NCBI RefSeq assembly: GCF_035621355.1
Contig: NZ_CP141769.1
Coordinates: 1,054,001-1,118,000 of the forward strand
Direction: 5' to 3'
From: Thiobacillus sp. SCUT-2
GTDB taxonomy: Bacteria > Pseudomonadota > Gammaproteobacteria > Burkholderiales > Thiobacillaceae
Length of the DNA: 64,000 bases
Shown: piece by piece, positions 7,054 to 51,807 of the stretch
Layout: the number at the start of each line of letters is the position of its first letter
Position numbering within the stretch: position 1 is the stretch's first letter
Made by a program: the position numbers and the translations under genes
Notes under the pieces: generated by a model
The model's database searches: none
Seen by the model: only the letters and a program-made list of their open reading frames with translations
What the model was told of the DNA's origin: nothing

Positions 7054-8050
7054 ACTTCTCCTCTCCCTTGGCGCCGAGCGAGATCTGGCCCTCGTCGGCG
7101 AGGCGGCGGACGATCATGAGGATTTCCTTCTGCTGCGCCTCGACCTCGGACAGCCGCACCGGCCCCTTGGATTCGAGATCCTCGCGCATCATCTCGGCGG
7201 CACGCTGCGACATGTTCTTGAAGATCTTCTCGCGCATTTCCGCAGAGGCGCCCTTGAGGGCGATGATGAGCGAGTCGGACTGCACCTCGCGCAGCAGCAG
7301 CTGGACGCCGCGATCCTCGATGTCCATGATGTTCTCGAACACGAACATCTCGTCCATGATCTTCTGCGCCATGTCGGGGTCGTAGCTCTTCAGGTACTCC
7401 ATCGCGGACTGCTCGTTGTCGCCGCTCATGAAGTTGAGGATGTCGGCCGCCGCGCGGGTGCCGCCCATCGGCTGCTTCTTCAGCACGTCGCTGCCCGACA
7501 GCAGCTTGGTCAGCACGTCGTTCAGTTCGCGCAGCGCGGCCGGCTGCACGCCGGAGAGGGTGGCGATGCGCAGCAGCACGTCGTTGCGCAGGCGCTCGGT
7601 GAAGCAGGTCAGCACTTCGCAGGCCTGGTCGCGCTCGAGGTGCACGAGGATGGTCGCGATCGTCTGCGGGTGCTCGTTGTGGATGAGGTCGGCGACCGAT
7701 TCGGCGTCCATCCACTTCAGGCTCTCGATGCCGCTGGCGTCGCCGCCGCCGCCGAGGATGCGGTTGAGCAGGGAATTGGCCTTGTCGTCGCCGAGCGCCT
7801 TGCGCAGCACGCTGCGGATGTAGTCGTCGGAGTCGACGCCGAGCGAGTAATGCGCGTCGGCGGTTTCGGTGAAGTCCTGCAGGACCGTCTGGACATGCTC
7901 CTGCGGAATGGCCTTCATGCCGGTCATCGCCTCGCCGAGCTTCTGGACCTCGCGCGGCCCCAGGTATTTCATGACTTCCGCCGCGCCTTCCTCGCCCAGG
8001 GCGAGCATCAGGATGGCGCCGCGGGTGACGCCGTTGGCAAGATCACTCAT
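7046..8050 (-). CDS. fliG: FliG, flagellar motor switch / torque protein
   Basis: FliG sits on the FliF ring and interacts with the stator MotA to generate torque. At 334 residues it has the usual length. The N-terminal domain starts GAILMLALGEEGAAEVMKYL. The middle domain carries the EHPQ motif (HNEHPQTIATILVHL), and the C-terminal domain has the charged torque helix region around LIIALKGASAEMREKIFKNM. It overlaps both fliF (8 bases) and fliH (8 bases). Confidence 0.97.
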   Translation of the reverse strand: MSDLANGVTRGAILMLALGEEGAAEVMKYLGPREVQKLGEAMTGMKAIPQEHVQTVLQDFTETADAHYSLGVDSDDYIRSVLRKALGDDKANSLLNRILGGGGDASGIESLKWMDAESVADLIHNEHPQTIATILVHLERDQACEVLTCFTERLRNDVLLRIATLSGVQPAALRELNDVLTKLLSGSDVLKKQPMGGTRAAADILNFMSGDNEQSAMEYLKSYDPDMAQKIMDEMFVFENIMDIEDRGVQLLLREVQSDSLIIALKGASAEMREKIFKNMSQRAAEMMREDLESKGPVRLSEVEAQQKEILMIVRRLADEGQISLGAKGEEKYV

Positions 8051-9656
8051 TGCTGCCCACCCACGTCTTCACGATGTTGGCGACCGCGCGCGGATCCTCG
8101 CTGGCCAGCTTCTGCGCCCGCGACAGGTTTTCCTGGTAGTTGCGCTGGCCGGGCAGCGCCATGACGTCCGCCTGCTGCAGCTGGAGGTCGACGCTGTGCG
8201 CGGGCCGCGCCGGCGCCTCGGCGATCTTCTTCAGCAGCGGCTTGAGCAGGCGCAGGTAAAGCAGCGCCAGCGCCACGGCCATCAGGAGGTACTTGCCGCC
8301 CTGGAGCGTCAGGTCGAGCGTCTCCGGCCGCTTCCACAGCGGGGTCTCGGGGATTGCTTCCGGCGTTGCGGTCGCGAACGGGCTGTTGACGACGTTGAGG
8401 GTGTCGCCGCGCTCCTGGTTGTAGCCCATGGCCTCCTTGACCAGGTTGGTGACCTGGGCGAGCTCGGCGGCGGTCAGCGGCTTCATCGTGACCTTGCCCG
8501 ACTTGTCGACGCTCTTGCGATAGTTGACGACGACGGCGACCGACAGGCGCTTCAGGCCGCCGCCTGCTTTCTGGACGTACTGGATGGTCTTGTCGACTTC
8601 GTAGTTGACCGTCGAATCCTTCTGCGTCGTCGTGACCGCCGCGGGCGCGGCCGCGGCGGCGGCGGCGGGTGCCTTCTGGGCAGGGGCGGTGATCGGCGCG
8701 GTGGCCGGAGCCGGCGGCTGGTTGGTGAGCGCACCCGGCACGCCGGCGGGTCCGCCGGCGCCGTTGGTCGATTCGCTGGTCTGCTGGCTGCGGATCGCCA
8801 TCGCGTCGGGGGTCTGGTTCGGCTTGTAGGACTCGACCGCCTGCTCGCTGTGCGAGAAATCCATGTCGGCCGTCGCTTCGGCACGCACGTTGTCGGCGCC
8901 GACGATGGGCGCGATGATCGATTCGATGCGCTTCGCGACGTTGTCCTGATAGTCCTGGACGTACTTGATCTGGCTCGGGTCCATGCCGTTGGCGGCGGCG
9001 GTCTTGCTGGTGTCGGACAGCAGATTGCCGTTCTCGTCGACCACGGTCACGTTCTTGGGCGACAGTTCCGGCACGCTGCTGGCCACCAGGTGGACGATGG
9101 CGCTGACCTGCTGCGCGTCCAGCACGCGGCCGGGGTGCAGGTTGAGCAGCACCGAGGCGGTGGGCTGCTTCTGCTCGCTGACGAACACCGAGTCCTTCGG
9201 CATGGCGAGGTGCACGCGCGCGGCCTGGACCGCGGAGAGGGATTCGATCGAGCGCGCCAGCTCGCCCTCCATCGCGCGCTGGAAATTGACCTGCTCGATG
9301 AACTGGGAGGCGCCGAGCTTCTGGTTCTCCATCAGTTCGAAGCCGACGTTGCCGCCCTTGGGGAGCCCCTGCGCCGCCAGCTTGAGGCGGGCGTCGTGGA
9401 CGCGATCGGCCGGCACCAGCAGGGCGCCGCCGCCGTCCGCGTACTTGTACGGGATGTTCATCTTGTCCAGCTCGGCGACGATGGCACCGCCGTCGCGGTC
9501 GCTGAAATTCGCGAACAGGACGCGGTAGTCGGGTTGCCGGCCCCACATCCAGACGGCGGCCATGATCGCCACGACCGCGGCCGCGCCCAGTATCAGCATC
9601 AGCTTGCGGCCGCCGGCAGTCCGCGTGAAGTCCATCACATTGCCCGGAATCGCCAT
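8043..9656 (-). CDS. fliF: FliF, flagellar MS-ring protein
   Basis: FliF builds the membrane MS ring, the first structure of the basal body. The product is 537 residues from the ATG at 9656, which I chose because GCAGGAGAA lies directly before it; an in-frame ATG at 9677 has no such site. Transmembrane segments flank a periplasmic region: LMLILGAAAVVAIMAAVWMW near the N-terminus and YLLMAVALALLYLRLL near residue 455. Two ring-building motifs and a Pro/Ala-rich variable insert (about 295-345) lie between. The C-terminus (TWVGSNE) is the FliG-binding tail. Confidence 0.96.
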   Translation of the reverse strand: MAIPGNVMDFTRTAGGRKLMLILGAAAVVAIMAAVWMWGRQPDYRVLFANFSDRDGGAIVAELDKMNIPYKYADGGGALLVPADRVHDARLKLAAQGLPKGGNVGFELMENQKLGASQFIEQVNFQRAMEGELARSIESLSAVQAARVHLAMPKDSVFVSEQKQPTASVLLNLHPGRVLDAQQVSAIVHLVASSVPELSPKNVTVVDENGNLLSDTSKTAAANGMDPSQIKYVQDYQDNVAKRIESIIAPIVGADNVRAEATADMDFSHSEQAVESYKPNQTPDAMAIRSQQTSESTNGAGGPAGVPGALTNQPPAPATAPITAPAQKAPAAAAAAAPAAVTTTQKDSTVNYEVDKTIQYVQKAGGGLKRLSVAVVVNYRKSVDKSGKVTMKPLTAAELAQVTNLVKEAMGYNQERGDTLNVVNSPFATATPEAIPETPLWKRPETLDLTLQGGKYLLMAVALALLYLRLLKPLLKKIAEAPARPAHSVDLQLQQADVMALPGQRNYQENLSRAQKLASEDPRAVANIVKTWVGSNE

Positions 9657-9770
9657 TTCTCCTGCACCCGCCATCATCGTGCCCCCATCGTGCCGGCGTC
9701 ATGGGCCGCCCGGACTCGGATTGTGCTGTTCATTCGCATTGCCCCATGAGGATTTCTCTCTGTGATCGCA

Positions 9771-9778
9771 TTATCGGC
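9771..9778 (-). promoter_or_regulatory. Perfect FliA-like -10 box upstream of the fliF operon
   Basis: The minus strand reads GCCGATAA, 8 of 8 bases of the sigma-28 -10 consensus, 115 bases before the chosen fliF start. Upstream is TTGAAAG, a weak -35 at a spacing about 4-6 bases shorter than standard. It lies in the 245-base divergent region between fliF and fliE. A perfect box with a poor -35 may mean that an activator is needed; this is a candidate only. Confidence 0.45.
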
Positions 9779-9901
9779 AGCGCGGGCGCTTTCAATCGCG
9801 GGAATAGCAGGCGGATTCGGGCGCTTATCGACCTTATGGCTTGCGGCGGCCCTGATAAGGTGGGCACGTGGAAAACCGCCTGACGAGGCAAGGAGGGCAC
9901 G

Positions 9902-10261
9902 ATGAGCGTAGGCATGATCGATACGAGCAAGATCGAGGCCATGGTGGCGCAGCTCCGGGCTGCAGCCGCAAAGGCCAGCCCGGCGGGAGCCAGCCCGGTC
10001 GGCGAGGGCGCGCTCCAGGCGCGGCCGGCGGCCGGGGCGGTCGACTTCTCCTCGGCCCTGAAATCCTCGCTCGACCAGGTCAACCAGTCGCAGCTGCAGG
10101 CGCAGCAGCTGGCCGAGCGTTACGAGCTGGGCGACAGCAAGGTCAGCCTCTCCGACGCCATGATCGCCCTGCAGAAATCCAGCATCGCCTTCCAGCAGAC
10201 CGTCCAGGTCCGCAACAAGCTCGTTTCCGCCTATCAGGAAATCATGAACATGCCGGTGTGA
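9902..10261 (+). CDS. fliE: FliE, basal-body MS-ring/rod junction protein
   Basis: FliE joins the MS ring to the proximal rod and is the first protein exported by the apparatus. The product has 119 residues with a variable Ala/Gly N-terminal 50 residues. The conserved C-terminal helices include DFSSALKSSLDQVNQSQLQA and end in the family signature RNKLVSAYQEIMNMPV. GGAGGGCACG precedes the ATG. It is transcribed alone and divergently from fliF, as in enterobacteria. Confidence 0.96.
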   Translation: MSVGMIDTSKIEAMVAQLRAAAAKASPAGASPVGEGALQARPAAGAVDFSSALKSSLDQVNQSQLQAQQLAERYELGDSKVSLSDAMIALQKSSIAFQQTVQVRNKLVSAYQEIMNMPV

Positions 10262-10269
10262 GGGGGGCG

Positions 10270-10325
10270 GTAAGTGGTAAGTGGTAAGTGGCAAGCGGCA
10301 AGCGGTGAGCGGTGAGCTGTGAGCG
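10270..10325. repeat. Heptamer tandem repeat, left arm (8 units)
   Basis: Eight consecutive 7-base units drift from GTAAGTG (three) through GCAAGCG (two) to GTGAGCG/GTGAGCT (three). They lie just downstream of the fliE stop. The last units are the reverse complement of the CGCTCAC units of the right arm at 10364-10440, so the two arrays can form a long imperfect hairpin between the convergent genes fliE and cheV. Confidence 0.9.
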
Positions 10326-10363
10326 GTTAGGGCAGGGCCGAGGGAGATCGCCTAATCCGATCC

Positions 10364-10440
10364 TGCTCACTGCTCACTGCTCACTGCTCCCCGCTCACTG
10401 CTCACTGCTCCCCGCTCCCCGCTCCCCGCTCCCCGCTCCC
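10364..10440. repeat. Heptamer tandem repeat, right arm (11 units)
   Basis: Eleven 7-base units alternate TGCTCAC, TGCTCCC, CGCTCAC and CGCTCCC, ending 4 bases before the cheV stop codon. They are inverted relative to the left arm (10270-10325) with 38 bases between. The units grade from CAC-ending to CCC-ending across the array, as expected of slippage with drift. A role as a bidirectional terminator is possible but not shown. Confidence 0.9.
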
Positions 10441-10444
10441 CGCC

Positions 10445-11419
10445 TCAGTGAACCGCCGCCTGGGCGACCGATTGCAGCGCGCTGCGCAGCGCGTTCGCCA
10501 GTTCTTCCGCGGCGAATTTCGCCACATAGGCGTCGGCGCCGACCTTCCTGACATGCGCCTCGTTGGTCGATCCGGTCAGCGAGGAGTGGATCACCACCGG
10601 AAGATTGCCGAAGCGCGCGTCCTGCTTGATGTTGCGCGTCAGCGTGAAACCGTCCATCTCGGGCATTTCGAGGTCGGTCAGCACGAGGGCGACGCGGTCG
10701 TACACGGTCTGGCCCTCTTGCTCCGACTTGGCCGCGATCGCCTGCAGCTGGTCCCAGGCGTCCTTGCCGTTCTTGCACATGAGAAAGGGCAGGCCCATGG
10801 ATTCGAGGCCCTGCTCGATCATGGTGCGCGCGATCAGCGAATCGTCGGCCGCCAGGATGATCGTCCCGGGCTTGATCTCGACGTGCGGGGGCATGCCATC
10901 ACTGCCGGATTCCTCCTCGGTCGGCGGCATCACCTGGCGCAGGATCGTCTCGACGTCGAGCACCTGGGCCAGGCGGTCGTTGTTATCGGCGTCCAGGCGG
11001 GCGATGCTGGTCACCATGCCGCTGGCGCCCTTGCCCTCGGCCGACAGCACCTGGCGCCAGTCGAGGCGCACGATGTCCTCGACCGATTCGACCGCGAAGG
11101 CCTGCGTGCTGCGCGCGTATTCGGTGATCAGCAGGATGTTCAGCCCCGTCTTGGGCGTGCAGCCCGCGACACCGGGCAGGTCGATGACCGGCAGGATCTG
11201 GCCGCGCAGGTCGACCATCCCCATCATGTACTGGGGCGATCCGGCGACCGCGGTGATGGCCGGCATCGGGATGATCTCGCGGATCTTGAACACGTTGATG
11301 CCGAACAGCTCGCTGTGCCCGAGCCCGGGGTCCTCACCCAGCCTGAACAGCAGCAACTCCAGCTTGTTCGAGCTGGTGAGGTTGGTGCGTTCGTCGATTT
11401 CCTGCTGGATGGTTTGCAT
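10445..11419 (-). CDS. cheV: CheV, chemotaxis coupling protein with receiver domain
   Basis: CheV couples chemoreceptors to CheA and adapts through phosphorylation. The 324-residue product has an N-terminal CheW-like domain (about 15-165, with VAGSPQYMMGMVDLRGQILP and DLPGVAGC). A C-terminal receiver domain (about 183-315) begins IILAADDSLIARTMIEQ and has the phospho-acceptor in LVLTDLEMPEMDG. Placement among flagellar genes fits a motility role. Confidence 0.93.
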   Translation of the reverse strand: MQTIQQEIDERTNLTSSNKLELLLFRLGEDPGLGHSELFGINVFKIREIIPMPAITAVAGSPQYMMGMVDLRGQILPVIDLPGVAGCTPKTGLNILLITEYARSTQAFAVESVEDIVRLDWRQVLSAEGKGASGMVTSIARLDADNNDRLAQVLDVETILRQVMPPTEEESGSDGMPPHVEIKPGTIILAADDSLIARTMIEQGLESMGLPFLMCKNGKDAWDQLQAIAAKSEQEGQTVYDRVALVLTDLEMPEMDGFTLTRNIKQDARFGNLPVVIHSSLTGSTNEAHVRKVGADAYVAKFAAEELANALRSALQSVAQAAVH

Positions 11420-42001: not shown

Positions 42002-42394
42002 ATGAACCAAGCCGCCGCCAAACCCTGCCCCTTCTGCGTGCTCGAGCCGCACCGCATCGTCGCCGAGGACGAACGGGCCGTCGCCTACCGCGACGGTTTC
42101 CCGGTCTCGCTGGGACACACCGTCATCATCCCGCGCCGCCACTTCGCGACCCTGTTCGAGGCGACCGAAGCCGAGCAGCTCGCGCTGTTCGGGATGCTGG
42201 CGCAGGCCAAGGAGGTGCTGGACCGGCTGCACCAGCCCGACGGCTACAACATCGGCATCAACCACGGCCAGGCTGGCGGCCAGAGCGTGCCGCACCTGCA
42301 CATCCACCTCATTCCGCGCTATCGCGGCGACAAGGAAGACCCGCGCGGCGGCGTGCGCTGGATCCTGCCGGACAAGGCCAAGTACTGGGCCTGA
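42002..42394 (+). CDS. HIT-family nucleotide hydrolase/transferase
   Basis: The 130-residue protein has the histidine triad HLHIHLIPR near residue 96 (preceded by GQAGGQSVP), and an N-terminal CPFC pair at residues 9-12 that may bind zinc. This is the Hint/Fhit-like group acting on nucleoside phosphoramidates or dinucleotides. The in-frame extension upstream of 42002 overlaps the LysR gene and is not real. Confidence 0.94.
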   Translation: MNQAAAKPCPFCVLEPHRIVAEDERAVAYRDGFPVSLGHTVIIPRRHFATLFEATEAEQLALFGMLAQAKEVLDRLHQPDGYNIGINHGQAGGQSVPHLHIHLIPRYRGDKEDPRGGVRWILPDKAKYWA

Positions 42395-42497
42395 GCCGGC
42401 TTCCTGCCGGGCGAGCGGGGACGGTGTACGGGCGCACCCGATCTGCTATTTTTCGAATTTGCACGTTTTTCCGACCACCTGACCTGGAGCCCTTCGC

Positions 42498-42920
42498 ATG
42501 TACAACACCTTCAAACCCGAACAGCCCATGGGCCTGATGGACTTCGTCCGCGCCGCCAAGGCCTGCACCAGGGAAATCTCCCCCCAGGTCCTGCAGGACA
42601 AGCTCACTGCCAAGGAAGACCTGCTGCTCCTCGACGTGCGCGAGCCCGGCGAATTCCAGGGCGGCCACATCAAGGGCGCGCACCTGGTGCCGCGCGGCCT
42701 CATCGAGGCCGCCGCCGATCCCGCCTATCCCAAGCACCTGCCCGAGCTGGCCGCCGCGCGCGACCGCCAGGTCGTCGTCTACTGCGCCACCAGCGGCCGT
42801 TCCGCCATGGCAGCCGCCGTGCTGCAGATGATGGGCTTCAAGAACGTGCTGAACATGGAAGGCGGCTACACGCGCTGGGTCGCCGACGGCCTGCCGCAGG
42901 AGCAGGAAGCCAACTACTGA
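42498..42920 (+). CDS. Rhodanese-like sulfurtransferase
   Basis: The 140-residue single-domain rhodanese has the active-site Cys at residue 96 in YCATSGRSAMAA, preceded by LLLLDVREPGEFQGGHIKGA, and ends with LNMEGGYTRWVADGLP. These elements make it a probable persulfide carrier. No sulfur-pathway gene is adjacent, so the partner is unknown. Confidence 0.93.
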   Translation: MYNTFKPEQPMGLMDFVRAAKACTREISPQVLQDKLTAKEDLLLLDVREPGEFQGGHIKGAHLVPRGLIEAAADPAYPKHLPELAAARDRQVVVYCATSGRSAMAAAVLQMMGFKNVLNMEGGYTRWVADGLPQEQEANY

Positions 42921-43110
42921 TCGCCGGCGGGCTCCCTCCCGAGCCCGGGCCGCACGAGGCCGTTGGGCTCGCCTCAAAGACATCAATTGAAACAGCCTGT
43001 CATGTGACTCATCGGCCGCGCCCTTCGTGAACGGTGCGGACCGGGCGCGGGCAGGCGGCTCGGGGGAGCGCGGGCGCGCCGCCCCGCGCGCCGCCCATGG
43101 GCCGCCGCCT

Positions 43111-43124
43111 ACAACTAAAGTTGT
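43111..43124. promoter_or_regulatory. Palindrome upstream of the tyrosinase-fusion gene
   Basis: ACAACT and AGTTGT are exact inverted arms around AA, 73 bases before the ATG of the 1342-residue protein. It stands out in a GC-rich leader and may be an operator. No family of regulators can be named from it. Confidence 0.45.
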
Positions 43125-43196
43125 ATGGCAATCCACAACCCGCCTCCTAAGCTGTTTCCACGGCTGCGGTTCGCAGCGACCGGAGGAGGGACAGCA

Positions 43197-46100
43197 ATGC
43201 AAGCGTTCGCGGATTTCGTGCGTCATGACAAGGCCGATCTCACGTTGCCGGAGCTGCTGAAGGAGGGCACCGGCGTGCTGCTGGGGGTGACCGCCGCTGC
43301 CGCCAGCGCACTCGCCGACATTGGAATCGCCACGGTTTTCGATCTCGGCGCATCGTGGGTCTTCGCCAATGCGCGGGCAGCCGCGGGGGCGGCCCGCGGC
43401 GACCAGCTCACCGCGCGGCTCGGCGTCGTTCCGACCGACTGGCTGCAGCCCGGGACCGTCGTCGGCCCGCTCGACCAGGTCGGCGACCTCGGGATCGAGG
43501 CGCTCCGCGGGCTGACCGCCGCGCAGGCGGCGGCGCTCAAGGCCGCGCTCGACGTCGATACGATCCGGGACTTTGCGCTCTGGCCGCCGCAGGCGTTCGC
43601 CCGTTCGCTGATCGTCGAGTCGGCCGGCGGCGAGCAGACGGTCGACGAGATCCAGACCGAACTGCTGCGCCCCCGCTTCGGGGACAGCCCGACCGAGCGG
43701 GTGTACTACAGCACGCTCGTCATGCTGCAGATGAACGAGAACGCCCAGGACGGCATGGTCCCGCTGGACGGCGCGGTCTCGCTCAAGCCGGCGGTCGACG
43801 TGAAGAGCGGATTCACGAAAATTGCCATTGGCGCCATGCTCAACTACTCGCAGTCCTGGTACGCGCAGGGAACGACGCTCGGGCACCTGCTGCATTCGCT
43901 CGCGCTGGCTCCCGGCGAGGCGACGCGCATTGCGGTGATCGACTGGAATCGCCGCACCTCCGCGACCGCATCGGAAGCCGTCGCCGAGAGCGAGCAGCTC
44001 GACTCGGCCACCTCGCATGCGCGGGCGATCAGCGAGGTGCAGAACGCCGTGGCCAGCGAGATGCAGGAAGGCGGCTCGACCTCGCACGCGACCTCGACCA
44101 CGACGAGCGATGCCGAACAGGCCGCGATCGGCACCGGGCTGCTCACCAGCCTGTGGGCCAGCGGCGACGCGTCCGTGTCGCGCCAGTCCGCGACGACGAC
44201 CTCGTCGGCCGAGTCCTCGTCGTGGTCGATGGGCAACCGCTCGGTCACGGCAAACATGGCCCAGAACATCAACGACCGCACCGAGCAGCATTCGACGAAC
44301 GTCCGCAACCGCCGGGCATCCGCGGTGCGCGAGGTCTCGCAATCCGAGCACGAGTCGGTCAGCACGCGCATCGTCGCGAACTACAACCACATGCACGCGC
44401 TCACCGTGCAGTACTACGAGATCGTGCAGATCTACCGGGTGGAGACTGCGCTCCACCAGGCCGACCGCGTGATGTTCATTCCCTTCGAGCTGATGGACTT
44501 CACGGCGCCGGATGCCTATGACTGGGTCGAGCGTTTCCGCGGCGCGCTGCTGCGCGCGGCGCTCAATGTCCGGGCCCGGCAGCTGCTGATCGACGACACG
44601 ACCGCCGTCGAGATCAAGCCGGAAGGCACGCCCGTGTATGTCCCGTCGCTGCGGCCCGAGATCGCGAAGGCATTCGGAACGATGCGCATCGCGCGCGTCG
44701 CCGAGACAGCCGCCCCCTTGCTGGCGGCGGCGGGCGCCGCCGGACCGGCGGCCGCGGAACCCGCCGTCGCCGCGGCGCTTCCGGTGCGCACGTGGGATGC
44801 GACGCGCATCGCGCTGGCGTCGCGCTTCGTGGCACGCCCCATCGTGCGGCCGGATTCGGACTCGCTGTTCTTTCCGGACGACACCGAGGTCCTGTCCCTG
44901 ACCTTCGACCGCGTGACGATCAGCAGCGCACGGCTCGATCGCGCCGATGCGGCCGGCGGCCCCCAGGACCTCACCGTCGTCAACGGCCGCGTCGATCTCC
45001 CGGCCGGAACCCGGCTGGGCGAACTGGAAGCGCTGTCCTGCGCCCGCCCCGACGGCAGCGACGCCAGCGGAACGGTGACGCTGCAGTGCGCCTATCTTGG
45101 CCGGCGCTTCTCGGCGCCGGCGATTCCCATCAACGTGGGAACGGCGATCGCCAAGGTGGTCAGCTTCCACTCCGACCAGGAAGACCGCAGGAAGGAACTG
45201 CTCGCCCACCTGAGCGCCAATCGCGCGCACTACACCAGCGCGGTCCTGAGTTCGCTGGACTCCGCGGCGCTCGTGCTGCTGCTGTCGCGGTACACGCTCA
45301 ACGGCCGCCCGGTGATCGACCAGGTGGAGCCCAAGCCGCTTCGCGTCGCGGGCAACTTCATGGTGTTGCGCGCGCCGGTCGACTACGACGAAGGCAGCGG
45401 CGTGTTCGACGGCGGCAACGAGCTGAAGTGGCAGCAACTGCTGACCCAGCGCGGCGTCCTCGCCGCCGAGGGGGAGCGCGTGATCATGCCGCGCGATACG
45501 CGCGTGATCCCCATCCCGACCAATGGCGTATTCGCCGAGGCCGTCCTCGGGCGCTCGAACAGCGCCGAAAAACTCGACATCACGCGCTTCTGGAACTGGC
45601 AGGATTCGCCGATCCCGATGCAGCCGACGGAGATCGCGCCGGTCGATACCGGAAGCCGCGCGCAGGCCGAGAATCTCACGCCCGGGCAGTTGAGCCCGCC
45701 GGTGCTGAACATCGTCAACCCGACGTCGCTGCCGAATCCCGCCGGGGTCGGCGCCGTTCTCGGCGCCGTCGCGTCGGGCAACATGTTCCGCGACATGAGC
45801 GGGCTGGCGGGGACGCAGGGGCTCGTGCGCACCGGCATCCAGGAGACCGCGCAGGCGGCCACCGACGCCGGGCAGATCGCGAGCGCCAACATGCGCACCG
45901 AGGCGCAGAAGGCCGTTTCGATGGGGCAGATCGCCGCCGACCTGGCGAAGAGCGCGATGTCGGCCGCGACCGGCGTGCCGGCGGGGGGCGGGGGCGGCTC
46001 GGTCTCCGGCATCTCCGGCGAGGGCGCGCGCATCAACCACGGCAAGAGCATGGACGACCGGGGCGTCGGCGGGGCATCCGGCGCAGGCGGCGGCTCGCCT

Positions 46101-47225
46101 GCGATCAACGCGGCCGGCGGTCAATCCGGCGGAGGCGGCGGTGCGGGTGGCGGCGGCTCCGGCGGAAGCGTCGGCGGCGGCGGGTCCGGCGCAGGCGGCG
46201 GGGGCGGCGCCGGCGGCGCGGCAGCGCCATCCAGCAGCAACGAGCAGGCCGCATTCGACCGCTCCCTGTGGGGCGGGGTCGGCAGTTCGGCGTCCGATCT
46301 CGCGGATCGAGGGCTCGCGTTCGCCAGCAACGTCTCCGGCTCGTCTGCGCTCGCCGTGATCGATTCGTCGGATTTCGACGGGCTGTTTTCGTTCGCGCAG
46401 CGCCACCGCCAGGCCGGTTCCGGTGGCGTGCCGCTGCGAAAGAATGCGGCCAACCTGCTGCCCGCCGAATGGAACCGGTTCAAGGCGGCGGTGAGCCAGC
46501 TGATCGCCAACGGGAAATACGCCCCGTTCGTCGCGACGCATGCCGACGCCTTCAACCGCGGCGCCGCCGCGGCGACCGCCAACACGCCGAACGACTGGGA
46601 GGCGCACTCGACCTTCGATGCCATGAACATGCCGCTCAGCCGCGGCACGAACTTCCTGAGCTGGCACCGCGGCTTCCTGTGCGCATTCGAAGACGCGCTT
46701 CAGGCCGTCGATCCGAACGTCACGATTCCGTATTGGGATTGGTACCACTTCCGGTCGCTGCCGGTGGAGCTGACGACGAACCTCCCCGCCAATTTCCCCA
46801 ACAACGGGCGGAACTTCGACGCGAACGGCATTCCGAGCCAGGGCGACATCCAGGCGTGGTGGCGCAGCGCCATCGCGAGCCGCAACTACACCCAGTTCCA
46901 GCGCACCCTCGAACTCAACCTTCACAACCTGGTGCATGGCGCCGTCGGCGGCGACATGGCCGACCCGACCCGGGCGGTATCGGACCCCGTGTTCTGGATG
47001 CACCACTGCTTCATCGACAAGCTCTGGGCCGACTACCAGGCCATCACGAACGGGAGCGTGCAGCCGTCGAACCTGACGGACGATCTCCAGCCGACGGCCC
47101 TGATGAACAAGAAGGTCTCGGACATCCTGCGCATCGAAGCGATTCCCGGCTGCCCGCATACGTACGAGGAGCTTTTCACGATCCCCGTCGTCGACTCGCC
47201 ATCTTCAGGGGTTCTTTTCGCCTAG
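43197..47225 (+). CDS. Giant multidomain protein with C-terminal tyrosinase-like di-copper domain
   Basis: The 1342-residue protein starts at an ATG preceded by GGAGGAGGG. Residues about 27-58 and 103-135 look like helix-hairpin-helix modules (LLGVTAAAASALADIGIATV). Residues about 150-900 match nothing I recognise; they include a Ser/Thr/Ala-rich helical tract (about 250-390) and the segment NYNHMHALTVQYYEIVQIYR. A Gly-rich linker (about 927-1014) leads to a tyrosinase/polyphenol-oxidase domain (about 1080-1342). CuB is canonical: H1243 and H1247 in LHNLVHGAVGGDM, H1269/H1270 in FWMHHCFID. CuA has H1115, H1137 and H1157 (FLSWHRGF), but the H2-H3 spacing is 20 rather than the usual 9. No signal peptide is seen. 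Oxidation of phenols is expected if CuA is functional. Confidence 0.85.
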   Translation: MQAFADFVRHDKADLTLPELLKEGTGVLLGVTAAAASALADIGIATVFDLGASWVFANARAAAGAARGDQLTARLGVVPTDWLQPGTVVGPLDQVGDLGIEALRGLTAAQAAALKAALDVDTIRDFALWPPQAFARSLIVESAGGEQTVDEIQTELLRPRFGDSPTERVYYSTLVMLQMNENAQDGMVPLDGAVSLKPAVDVKSGFTKIAIGAMLNYSQSWYAQGTTLGHLLHSLALAPGEATRIAVIDWNRRTSATASEAVAESEQLDSATSHARAISEVQNAVASEMQEGGSTSHATSTTTSDAEQAAIGTGLLTSLWASGDASVSRQSATTTSSAESSSWSMGNRSVTANMAQNINDRTEQHSTNVRNRRASAVREVSQSEHESVSTRIVANYNHMHALTVQYYEIVQIYRVETALHQADRVMFIPFELMDFTAPDAYDWVERFRGALLRAALNVRARQLLIDDTTAVEIKPEGTPVYVPSLRPEIAKAFGTMRIARVAETAAPLLAAAGAAGPAAAEPAVAAALPVRTWDATRIALASRFVARPIVRPDSDSLFFPDDTEVLSLTFDRVTISSARLDRADAAGGPQDLTVVNGRVDLPAGTRLGELEALSCARPDGSDASGTVTLQCAYLGRRFSAPAIPINVGTAIAKVVSFHSDQEDRRKELLAHLSANRAHYTSAVLSSLDSAALVLLLSRYTLNGRPVIDQVEPKPLRVAGNFMVLRAPVDYDEGSGVFDGGNELKWQQLLTQRGVLAAEGERVIMPRDTRVIPIPTNGVFAEAVLGRSNSAEKLDITRFWNWQDSPIPMQPTEIAPVDTGSRAQAENLTPGQLSPPVLNIVNPTSLPNPAGVGAVLGAVASGNMFRDMSGLAGTQGLVRTGIQETAQAATDAGQIASANMRTEAQKAVSMGQIAADLAKSAMSAATGVPAGGGGGSVSGISGEGARINHGKSMDDRGVGGASGAGGGSPAINAAGGQSGGGGGAGGGGSGGSVGGGGSGAGGGGGAGGAAAPSSSNEQAAFDRSLWGGVGSSASDLADRGLAFASNVSGSSALAVIDSSDFDGLFSFAQRHRQAGSGGVPLRKNAANLLPAEWNRFKAAVSQLIANGKYAPFVATHADAFNRGAAAATANTPNDWEAHSTFDAMNMPLSRGTNFLSWHRGFLCAFEDALQAVDPNVTIPYWDWYHFRSLPVELTTNLPANFPNNGRNFDANGIPSQGDIQAWWRSAIASRNYTQFQRTLELNLHNLVHGAVGGDMADPTRAVSDPVFWMHHCFIDKLWADYQAITNGSVQPSNLTDDLQPTALMNKKVSDILRIEAIPGCPHTYEELFTIPVVDSPSSGVLFA

Positions 47226-47627
47226 CGATCCAGCGAGAGCGCCCAATCACGAATCGTCACGCCGGGCACGAAGCAAAAGCGCCTCGCCTCGCCGCGAGGC
47301 GCTTCGTATCGGGCTCGCAGAGGGCGCTTCCGGTCATTCCGGGAGAAAGCGAAGGACTCCGGCGGAGCAGGCCCGCAGGGTGGGAAGGCGCGGGACGTTC
47401 GTCGCCGCCATGCCTTCGCCGCTGTGATGCCAGAGCGACGCGTATCGAGCGCAGGCGTCGAATGCTCCGCTTTGCTTAACATGTATTCAGGATGTATATT
47501 TACTCCTGGTTGCCTGCATTGAGTTGGGCGACACCGCCTGGATATCACCCGGCGATGTGACGCCCGTACTGCCAGGTCCATGCAGACCTTGTCGAATACC
47601 TCCGATTTTTTCCAGGAAAGAGCAAAC
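47226..47627. other. Gene-poor interval between the tyrosinase fusion and the HMA-like gene
   Basis: No convincing gene is present; a 147-codon minus-strand frame here lacks recognisable features and overlaps the next gene. The interval holds a hairpin terminator (47277-47304) and, at about 47480-47503, two copies of ATGTAT 8 bases apart in a locally AT-rich stretch that is probably promoter DNA for the gene at 47628. Confidence 0.5.
47277..47304. terminator. Hairpin after the tyrosinase-fusion gene
   Basis: Arms AAGCGCCTCG (47277-47286) and CGAGGCGCTT (47295-47304) form a 10-base-pair stem with an 8-base loop, 52 bases after the stop codon. There is no T run on the plus strand; the minus strand has TTTTG, so it may work in either direction. 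Confidence 0.55.
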
Positions 47628-47885
47628 ATGAAAACCGAGACCTTCCATATCATCGGCCCCGTCAACGCCCAGGCGACGGAGCGTGCCAGCGCCAGCCTGA
47701 AGGCGATTCCGGGCGTGCACGAGGTATCGTTTCTCGACGCCCCGGCGCGGCTGTTCGCGCACGTCGACGATAAAGCGACGACCCGTCCGCAATTGGTGTC
47801 GGCGCTTGCCGAAGCCGGTGTGCTCGTCGAAGAAAAACCGTCGCCGCACGCGAACGGGAGTTGTTGCGGCGGTTGCGGCAGCTAG
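47628..47885 (+). CDS. Small HMA-like ferredoxin-fold protein with Cys-rich tail
   Basis: The 85-residue protein has the beta-alpha-beta pattern of heavy-metal-associated domains: TFHIIGPVNAQATERASASL, then KAIPGVHEVSFLDAPARLFA and a final helix. The usual CxxC of loop 1 is replaced by VNAQAT. Instead it ends SCCGGCGS, giving three Cys that could bind metal. AGGAAAG precedes the ATG. It lies 400 bases after the copper-type tyrosinase gene, so a copper-handling link is possible but unproven. Confidence 0.7.
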   Translation: MKTETFHIIGPVNAQATERASASLKAIPGVHEVSFLDAPARLFAHVDDKATTRPQLVSALAEAGVLVEEKPSPHANGSCCGGCGS

Positions 47886-47953: not shown

Positions 47954-47979
47954 AAAGGCCACTCTGTAGAGTGGCCTTT
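47954..47979 (-). terminator. Terminator beyond the displaced tRNA-Asn 3' end
   Basis: AAAGGCCACTC and GAGTGGCCTTT pair with an 4-base loop; on the minus strand the stem is followed by further T residues. It sits 4 bases beyond the left repeat (47983-48032), so it is probably the original terminator of the tRNA-Asn gene before the island separated it. It can also end transcription of the HMA-like gene. Confidence 0.75.
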
Positions 47980-47982
47980 CTA

Positions 47983-48032
47983 TATCTGGCTCCCCGACCT
48001 GGGCTCGAACCAAGGACCTGCGGATTAACAGT
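47983..48032 (-). repeat. Left island boundary: duplicated 3' part of tRNA-Asn
   Basis: Fifty bases match 51635-51684 with one mismatch (A at 48013, G at 51665). The copy covers the tRNA-Asn 3' end up to the anticodon loop, then diverges. It is not a functional tRNA because the 5' half is missing. It is the signature left by site-specific integration into a tRNA 3' end (att site). Confidence 0.88.
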
Positions 48033-51181: not shown

Positions 51182-51703
51182 ATGGCATCCGAACAAAAAT
51201 ACGGAAGACTCACGCCGGAAGATTTCAAGGCTCTTTTCTTGCTGCTCCCCCAGTTGGATCAAGAGAGACAAGAGCTCCAAGCGAAGATTGCTGAAAAGCC
51301 CGAAGCATTCGCTGAGAAATTCCTGACTACCGGCTTCACTTGGGCGCACCTCTACGAAGTGTCATTCCCCAAGCTGCTTTTGGGCTTCCTTGCCGTTGCG
51401 GGCGTCGATGAAGCAATCGCTCACGTTGCCAGGCAAACCCCATCACCCTCTGCCCCTGGACGGGGCGCCGGCTCCGGCTTCGCCTGCGGTTTGCATCGTG
51501 CCGATGCCAACGCGATGGGGTTTCCCGCGCCTAGGCACCAGCGTTTCAACCTTGGAGCAGAGTGCAGCAAAATTGCAGCAATAACCCCTGCGCAAATGAA
51601 AACGGCTCACGTTTTTACACGTAAGCCGTTGTTTTATCTGGCTCCCCGACCTGGGCTCGAACCAGGGACCTGCGGATTAACAGTCCGTCGCTCTACCGAC
51701 TGA
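51182..51703 (+). CDS. Hypothetical protein / possible remnant at the island edge
   Basis: The open frame starts MASEQKYGRLTPEDFKALFL, has a plausible helical stretch for about 85 residues (LLLPQLDQERQELQAKIAEK), then turns into Pro/Gly/Ala-rich sequence. It ends by reading antisense through the tRNA-Asn gene. The first 85 residues may be the 5' part of a real gene whose 3' part was lost when the island boundary formed. No function can be named. Confidence 0.4.
   Translation: MASEQKYGRLTPEDFKALFLLLPQLDQERQELQAKIAEKPEAFAEKFLTTGFTWAHLYEVSFPKLLLGFLAVAGVDEAIAHVARQTPSPSAPGRGAGSGFACGLHRADANAMGFPAPRHQRFNLGAECSKIAAITPAQMKTAHVFTRKPLFYLAPRPGLEPGTCGLTVRRSTD
51433..51523. repeat. Nested inverted repeats near the right island edge
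   Basis: AAACCCCATC (51435-51444) pairs with GATGGGGTTT (51514-51523), and GCAAACC (51433-51439) can instead pair with GGTTTGC (51488-51494). Smaller hairpins lie inside. The patch is more GC-rich than the rest of the island. It could be a REP-like element or part of the attachment site; no function is established. Confidence 0.5.
51601..51630 (-). terminator. Terminator-like hairpin after tRNA-Asn
   Basis: AACGGCTCACG (51601-51611) and CGTAAGCCGTT (51620-51630) pair over 11 positions, with a G-U pair in the minus-strand RNA. It lies 8 bases beyond the tRNA 3' end and probably ends tRNA transcription now that the island has displaced the original terminator at 47954-47979. The T run after it is short. 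Confidence 0.5.
51635..51684 (-). repeat. Right island boundary: att repeat within tRNA-Asn
   Basis: This is the partner of 47983-48032 (49 of 50 bases identical). It contains the 3' half of the intact tRNA-Asn gene and four bases downstream. Together the repeats delimit a 3.65-kb insertion holding the methylase, vsr and restriction genes. Confidence 0.88.
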
Positions 51704-51714
51704 GCTATCGGGGA
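51639..51714 (-). tRNA. tRNA-Asn (GUU)
   Basis: The 76-base minus-strand sequence folds as a cloverleaf: acceptor TCCCCGA pairs with TCGGGGA, D-arm GCTCAGTCGGTAGAGC, anticodon loop CTGTTAA (anticodon GUU), T-arm with GGTTCGAGCC, and an encoded GCCA 3' end. It closely resembles E. coli tRNA-Asn. It is the integration target of the neighbouring island and has been rebuilt intact on the right side. Confidence 0.97.
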
Positions 51715-51726
51715 AAGGAAGCGCGC

Positions 51727-51755
51727 ATTCTAGAGAGGGCGGGCGTTCCGGTCAA
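51727..51755 (-). promoter_or_regulatory. Promoter of tRNA-Asn
   Basis: On the minus strand TTGACC, 17 bases, then TAGAAT: 5 of 6 matches in each box with ideal spacing. The -10 box ends 12 bases before the mature tRNA 5' end. Confidence 0.85.
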
Positions 51756-51807
51756 CCCTTGCGGGCGATTTTGTCGATGTCCGACGCGCTGGTTTCGGCC
51801 AACCGGA

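Follow-up and report, generated by a model that had tools for sequence, protein, structure and literature searches.

A probable copper oxidase as one of many tails on an undescribed, patchily distributed family of carrier proteins

Introduction

Bacterial tyrosinases of Pfam family PF00264, such as the Streptomyces MelC2 type and that of Bacillus megaterium, are about 280–300 residues long. What, then, is the role of the remaining sequence when such a domain is found at the end of a protein of 1342 residues? The question is raised by a gene of Thiobacillus sp. SCUT-2 at positions 43197..47225 (+ strand) of the window, by which we mean the whole 64,000-nucleotide stretch analysed (contig NZ_CP141769.1, positions 1,054,001 to 1,118,000). 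Its 1342-residue product is here called P0001, and all residue numbers refer to it. An earlier note, made from the letters of the DNA, had described a di-copper domain behind a long N-terminal region and had proposed that this region may be a surface, assembly or substrate-presenting module that targets phenol oxidation. On the evidence of sequence comparison, the N-terminal region is a carrier (head, core, β-sandwich and long helix) joined through a motif and a flexible linker to one of dozens of dissimilar tails.

A conserved carrier joined to dissimilar tails

With residues 1–900 as query, at least 948 proteins were matched among 7999 scored candidates. The best 120 of these 948, P0001 included, are the listed proteins on which the tail and tree counts rest; they include named members of several phyla, and the other 119 show 48–62% identity over 95–100% of residues 1–900. 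In 119 of the 120, P0001 among them, the carrier runs into a conserved GARINHG-type motif, then a Gly/Ser linker and finally a tail. Once the first 90 residues of each tail had been trimmed, 119 of 120 were usable (P0119 being too short) and fell by BLAST into 36 groups at an E-value of 1e-3 (37 at 1e-6), consistent with their Pfam labels. The earlier note had asked whether the N-terminal part also occurs with other C-terminal enzymes, and these 36 tail groups in 119 proteins show that it does.

The tails include metallopeptidases, papain-like amidases, serine hydrolases, cell-wall amidases and OmpA domains, together with many that could not be assigned an identity. The zinc-peptidase signature HExxH is carried by 37 of the 120 tails, where shuffling of the tails would give 0.6; one group accounts for 30 of the 37. 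Pfam labels eight families among the tails of the 119 listed proteins other than P0001, namely PF13354 (serine hydrolase), PF11579, PF10030 (DUF2272), PF12671 (Amidase_6), PF12385 (peptidase C70), PF07737, PF00691 (OmpA) and PF01510 (Amidase_2); the majority have no label, and PF00264 occurs in P0001 alone. Peptide and peptidoglycan hydrolases dominate the recognisable tails of this layout, DUF2272 and Amidase_6 being grouped with peptidoglycan amidases in PMC10318531. Across 34 members chosen for diversity, Pfam found HH_signal, GH25, M23, C70, M15, OmpA, Amidase_6 and LysM in one member each, and tectonin and HHH_3 in two each. The HH_signal match is a Hedgehog N-terminal signalling domain (E 5e-53) in one carrier protein of alignment A3.

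Four pairs of proteins with 86–91% identical carriers bear tails from different groups. In P0054/P0061 and P0068/P0070 identity is 74–98% per 50-column block up to GAKINHGxxMDxR and 0–38% thereafter, while in P0080/P0088 and P0035/P0044 similarity breaks after a second boundary element further along the linker region. Because such similar carriers have unrelated tails, with similarity ending at the boundary motif or at the second element, we conclude that the tails are exchanged by recombination. On a FastTree tree of the carriers (120 rows, with weak support for 34 of the 117 inner branches) the 36 tail groups require 52 changes, compared to a minimum of 35 and an average of 82.8 for shuffled labels. 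For 66 of 119 proteins, the closest carrier bears a tail of the same group. Judged from these comparisons, tails are partly inherited within clades and often replaced. A conserved N-terminal part with swapped C-terminal domains, as expected of polymorphic toxins, is therefore found here, and the family fits a polymorphic system of a carrier with exchangeable cargo.

The tyrosinase tail of P0001

The tail of P0001 is very probably a copper oxidase. Residues 1078–1295 (46428..47081, +) are a predicted type-3 di-copper tyrosinase domain, which scores 102.6 bits against PF00264 (cut-off 22.6), the sole Pfam domain above cut-off in the protein, and matches the Streptomyces-type tyrosinase 1wx2 in the PDB (6.4e-28). 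By sequence position, the CuA histidines are H1115, H1137 and H1157, the last within a WHR element, and the CuB histidines are H1243, H1247 and H1269/H1270. We take six of these, with H1270 as the third of CuB, to be copper ligands, on the strength of the motif of known tyrosinases. The CuB histidines and the WHR element had been correctly read in the earlier note, to which H1115 and H1137 can be added. P0001 shares six histidines at the copper-ligand positions with the bacterial tyrosinases, but its 108.8 bits against the MelC2 tyrosinase equivalog (NCBIfam NF047834) lie far below the cut-off of 450. The functional units of molluscan hemocyanin match the same copper domain, and hemocyanin chains have the top summed PDB scores for P0001 because those chains are multi-domain, whereas P0001 has a single copper domain on an unrelated carrier.

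These canonical copper ligands would also be expected of a normal tyrosinase whose large accessory domain is dedicated to phenol chemistry. We consider this very improbable, since the supposed accessory region is also joined to dozens of other tails, and among 323 carrier sequences examined (240 proteins and 83 open reading frames (ORFs) from loci, in part fragmentary and perhaps with some proteins included twice) P0001 alone has the tyrosinase signature. The same counts lend no support to the proposal that the N-terminal part targets phenol oxidation in particular. What they support is the idea of an assembly or presenting module in a general form, as a carrier with many tails.

Architecture of gene and carrier

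The gene, delimited by translation, Pfam and homologue search, is a single uninterrupted frame of 1342 codons followed by a stop, covering carrier, linker and tyrosinase. That it is an assembly or annotation fusion of two genes, one of the outcomes by which the earlier note could have been refuted, has next to no probability: we found no evidence for such a fusion, the junction is followed by a tail in homologues of similar length too, and the 3.01-Mb genome that contains the gene is a single contig. A search of this genome with P0001 returns one match, its own gene. A longer ORF from 43125 is probably not the gene start, as homologues begin at a Met equivalent to 43197. On the minus strand, an ORF of 1616 codons (42309–47159) lies antisense to the gene; shadow frames of such length are frequent in this GC-rich window.

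The carrier begins with an HhH-like helical head (residues 1–145; 43197..43631, +), conserved in homologues of the same layout and modelled as all-helical, with a predicted local distance difference test (pLDDT) score above 85 in 12 of the first 14 ten-residue blocks. Pfam places HhH matches at the extreme N-terminus of relatives with another layout and none in P0001 itself, so the HhH-like repeats reported earlier stand as a helical head with HhH-bearing relatives, without a match of their own. The first part of the conserved core (residues 157–505; 43665..44711, +) contains long strands and, from about residue 207 onward, is common to all layouts. Within it lies a Ser/Thr-rich segment (residues 290–345; 44064..44231, +), with 45% Ser plus Thr compared to 15% in residues 1–900 and a hydrophobic tip, AAIGTGLLTSLWASG (residues 309–323, +); segment and tip were measurable in 223 of 240 proteins. 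The segment had been described as a Ser/Thr-rich helical tract, of which the composition holds and the helix does not, the models giving mainly long strands at low confidence (pLDDT <50).

A weakly PLAT-like β-sandwich follows (residues 530–660; 44784..45176, +), then a nearly invariant block, NGVFAEAVLGRSNSAEKLDITRFWNWQDSPIP (residues 776–807; 45522..45617, +), with invariant columns in alignments A1 and A4, which is poorly modelled. Some of the best-conserved blocks are modelled worst in the monomer, as would be expected of an assembly interface. Ahead of the linker the structure model predicts a long helix (residues 871–925; 45807..45971, +). The GARINHG-type boundary motif, ISGEGARINHGKSMDDRG (residues 939–956; 46011..46064, +), leads into the Gly/Ser-rich linker (residues 956–1014; 46062..46238, +), whose Gly-rich character, noticed earlier, is real (38 Gly within residues 956–1062), and this in turn is followed by the second boundary element, NEQAAFDRSLWGGVG (residues 1015–1029; 46239..46283, +), with the counterparts AFNRALWGPLG and SREAAYADQGALGYSP in homologues. 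The region, which the earlier note could place in no family, is undescribed: neither residues 1–900 nor the N-terminal part of about 950 residues reached any Pfam or NCBIfam cut-off, and within residues 1–900 just two rows appeared, for TOM6p (E 0.052) and for a flexirubin protein (E 0.24), both below cut-off. Taken with its hydrophobic tip, the Ser/Thr-rich segment suggests, without proving, a membrane-inserting or assembling delivery module.

Distribution and layouts

In a scan of a genome collection 101 stretches were confirmed, of which the best 80 represent 76 distinct loci; the titles of their records name Proteobacteria, Myxococcales, Actinobacteria, Bacteroidetes, Paenibacillus, Acidobacteria, Verrucomicrobia, Chloroflexi and others, and one archaeal record, a Methanosarcinaceae metagenome-assembled genome. 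Carrier matches were present in 29 of 72,556 plasmid records, in none of which did a single place account for 80% of the query, and in one of 50,697 phage records, as a weak partial match. Two of the plasmid matches are from archaeal Haladaptatus and have a DUF2272 protein as annotated product (one at 7263–11336 of locus L078), which is of note as archaea are without typical peptidoglycan. By these searches the carrier family, previously undescribed, has a patchy distribution that takes in many bacterial phyla as well as a few archaea. Closer to Thiobacillus sp. SCUT-2, it was seen in five of 116 other genomes of the family, three of these being distant partial matches only, and in four of 396 other genomes of the phylum (few candidates being scored per genome); the closest carriers are 42% identical in the genus and 44% in the family. 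Since the best listed match anywhere is 62% identical, the simplest reading is that the carrier was gained by horizontal transfer.

Comparison of residues 1–985 with the ORFs of the scanned loci distinguished several layouts: head, core and long tail, as in P0001; whole or partial head and core with almost no tail, in Streptomyces and allies; core with little else, in Marinobacter (756–757 residues); and a longer, different N-terminal region before the core, with the tail present or absent. A query with the core of a Myxococcus protein that has this last layout matched at least 1325 proteins among 8000 scored; the best 120 of these carry the HHH_3 label in 93 cases and DUF2272, C70, M15, LysM or OmpA in 15, some having both. 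Five proteins of this layout scanned singly each have an HhH match within residues 2–63, which places an N-terminal head here as in the P0001 layout. The tail of the Myxococcus member comprises both a C70 and an Amidase_6 domain. On plasmid Lpl of Novosphingobium sp. PP1Y (L106, 5391–10148), a gene for a neprosin-type peptidase ends 18 bp before a core gene with no Pfam match and no recognised tail, so that the enzyme may also be supplied as a separate gene. In two Marinobacter species, similar-looking genes for 322–325 residues lie downstream of the tail-less core gene (L056, 12289–13257; L057, 12122–13099) and have no Pfam match.

Possible function of the carrier

The data as a whole seem best explained by a carrier with swapped tails that delivers them as an oligomer at a membrane or envelope, a reading to which we give about even credence. 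On this view the carrier would form an oligomer that becomes inserted into a membrane or envelope, or is docked there, so that the tail reaches targets beyond the cytoplasm. In the P0001 layout most recognisable tails look like enzymes that would cut peptides or peptidoglycan; the tyrosinase tail would instead oxidise phenols or exposed tyrosines to quinones and in this way damage or cross-link the proteins of a competitor or host, or those in the surroundings of the cell itself. No dedicated immunity gene lies beside the P0001 gene, the interval from its stop to 47580 starting only two plus-strand ORFs (32 and 35 residues), which suggests that the target is not the cell's own kind or that the cargo is active only after release. 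In 19 neighbourhoods a same-strand ORF of varied size and kind begins within 300 bp downstream in nine; among the loci examined there is no recurrent, carrier-specific neighbour family, and immunity genes may differ by tail.

Polymorphic toxin systems likewise combine a shared N-terminus with unrelated C-terminal domains that recombination has diversified, and their tails, too, include papain-like peptidases (Tox-PL1) (Zhang et al. 2012, PMC3482391). An adjacent immunity gene is a key feature of those systems as set out in the same paper, whereas the P0001 gene is without one and its carrier has no recognised trafficking domain, no Pfam or NCBIfam match lying above cut-off in residues 1–900; tyrosinase is not mentioned in the part of PMC3482391 considered. 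Rhs/YD-repeat and ABC (Tc) toxins are also alike in having a large conserved part and variable C-terminal cargo; the N-terminal part of P0001 differs in having no Pfam match.

Several observations weigh against delivery. A signal-like N-terminal stretch, which would speak for the surface location proposed earlier, is found, by a crude hydrophobicity threshold, in just one of 120 proteins of the P0001 layout and one of 120 of another (20 and 15 of 120 lie above a laxer threshold), and no recurring secretion neighbour was found at carrier loci. The genome itself has neither the phage-type sheath (PF04984) nor the type VI secretion protein VipB (PF05943), each of which was present in four of 18 carrier genomes searched. 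A pore-former fold, sought as a β-barrel pore-forming toxin with a Ser/Thr-rich stem hairpin, was not recognised, and the tip of P0001 has a modest Kyte–Doolittle hydrophobicity of 1.47 (family median 1.8, minimum 0.53). The majority of tails are without a Pfam label, and 35 members of this kind matched no Pfam family even at E 0.01, so the dominance of hydrolases concerns the recognisable tails only. OmpA and LysM tails bind rather than kill, which leaves room for a non-toxic scaffold role. The HhH head leaves room for an intracellular one, since HhH domains of the ComEA type bind DNA and such a head would be unexpected in a membrane-delivery protein.

Such a scaffold would be self-directed: the carrier would build a structure at the surface of the cell or within its own envelope, with anchors (OmpA, LysM) or remodelling enzymes as tails and the tyrosinase cross-linking or pigmenting the structure. 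OmpA and LysM each occur in one of the 34 diverse members, OmpA in one of the best 120 of 948, and each of the two in two of the best 120 of 1325; cell-wall enzymes among the tails, and the missing immunity gene beside P0001, would suit this role as well. We nevertheless think it unlikely, given the absence of a signal peptide, the very patchy presence in family and phylum (5/116 and 4/396 genomes) and the frequent turnover of tails. Less likely again is an intracellular anti-phage defence, in which infection would be sensed by the carrier, perhaps by way of nucleic acid and the HhH head, with the tail then damaging the cell itself. Exchangeable tails and the HhH head are compatible with this, as is a stand-alone gene at a variable site adjoining a restriction-modification cassette, and genes for type I restriction, TIR and DUF262 proteins are found close to one relative on a Polaromonas plasmid. 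Against it, the cassette in Thiobacillus is a separate insertion at a tRNA-Asn gene, and peptidoglycan-acting tails make little sense in the cytoplasm. PADLOC (library dated 2023) moreover gave few matches in the 34 members, namely LeoBC in two (best E 3.1e-4), two ZorB models in one each, probably an OmpA domain, and AbiEi in one, none covering the shared core as judged from family names.

If delivery by an oligomeric carrier is correct, the family could represent a new cross-domain class of self-sufficient, self-assembling, membrane-inserting carriers, spread horizontally through bacteria and archaea, taking on dozens of unrelated enzymes at a recombination boundary and needing neither a dedicated secretion apparatus nor an immunity gene, here with an oxidative copper cargo; we put this forward tentatively, as a possibility we would not yet favour. 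The carrier, conserved at 48–62% identity over 900 residues in the best 120 and without a Pfam name, unites dozens of mostly unidentified domains. Its function, once known, would give a shared context to many tails now called hypothetical protein, and would tell whether tail-swappers without a recognised trafficking domain are a separate class of conflict or of surface-building systems. A tyrosinase as cargo would, if true, be unusual effector chemistry.

Genomic neighbourhood

Upstream of the P0001 gene lies a rhodanese gene (42498–42920), and downstream a small ORF with a Cys-rich CCGGCG end (47580–47885) and no Pfam match. The latter has matches in 13 of 25 other genomes of the genus, weakly so in one of the 13; in the single genome where positions were compared, it and the rhodanese gene are on different contigs. 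Further on, a stretch of 60 bp (47973–48032) duplicates the 3' end of tRNA-Asn and forms a direct repeat with the tRNA-Asn gene itself (51639–51714, − strand; repeat region 51635–51759). Between the repeats is a restriction cassette of C5-cytosine methylase, Vsr and MvaI/BcnI-type endonuclease, with a GC content of about 50–57% against about 61–74% in the remaining region; none of the four cassette ORFs scanned matched an integrase family. From the rhodanese gene to a YihY-like gene the distance is 8.9 kb here, compared to 3.2 and 1.4 kb, with other contents between, in two relatives of the genus chosen because these genes lie close; it is about 15–27 kb in three further genomes of the genus, and elsewhere the two genes are farther apart or on different contigs. 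This variable spacing and content point to a variable site at which carrier gene and restriction cassette are accessory. Across the carrier loci, the widest recurring neighbours, by our own reading, are LuxR-type regulators (12 loci) and ABC ATPases (9 loci).

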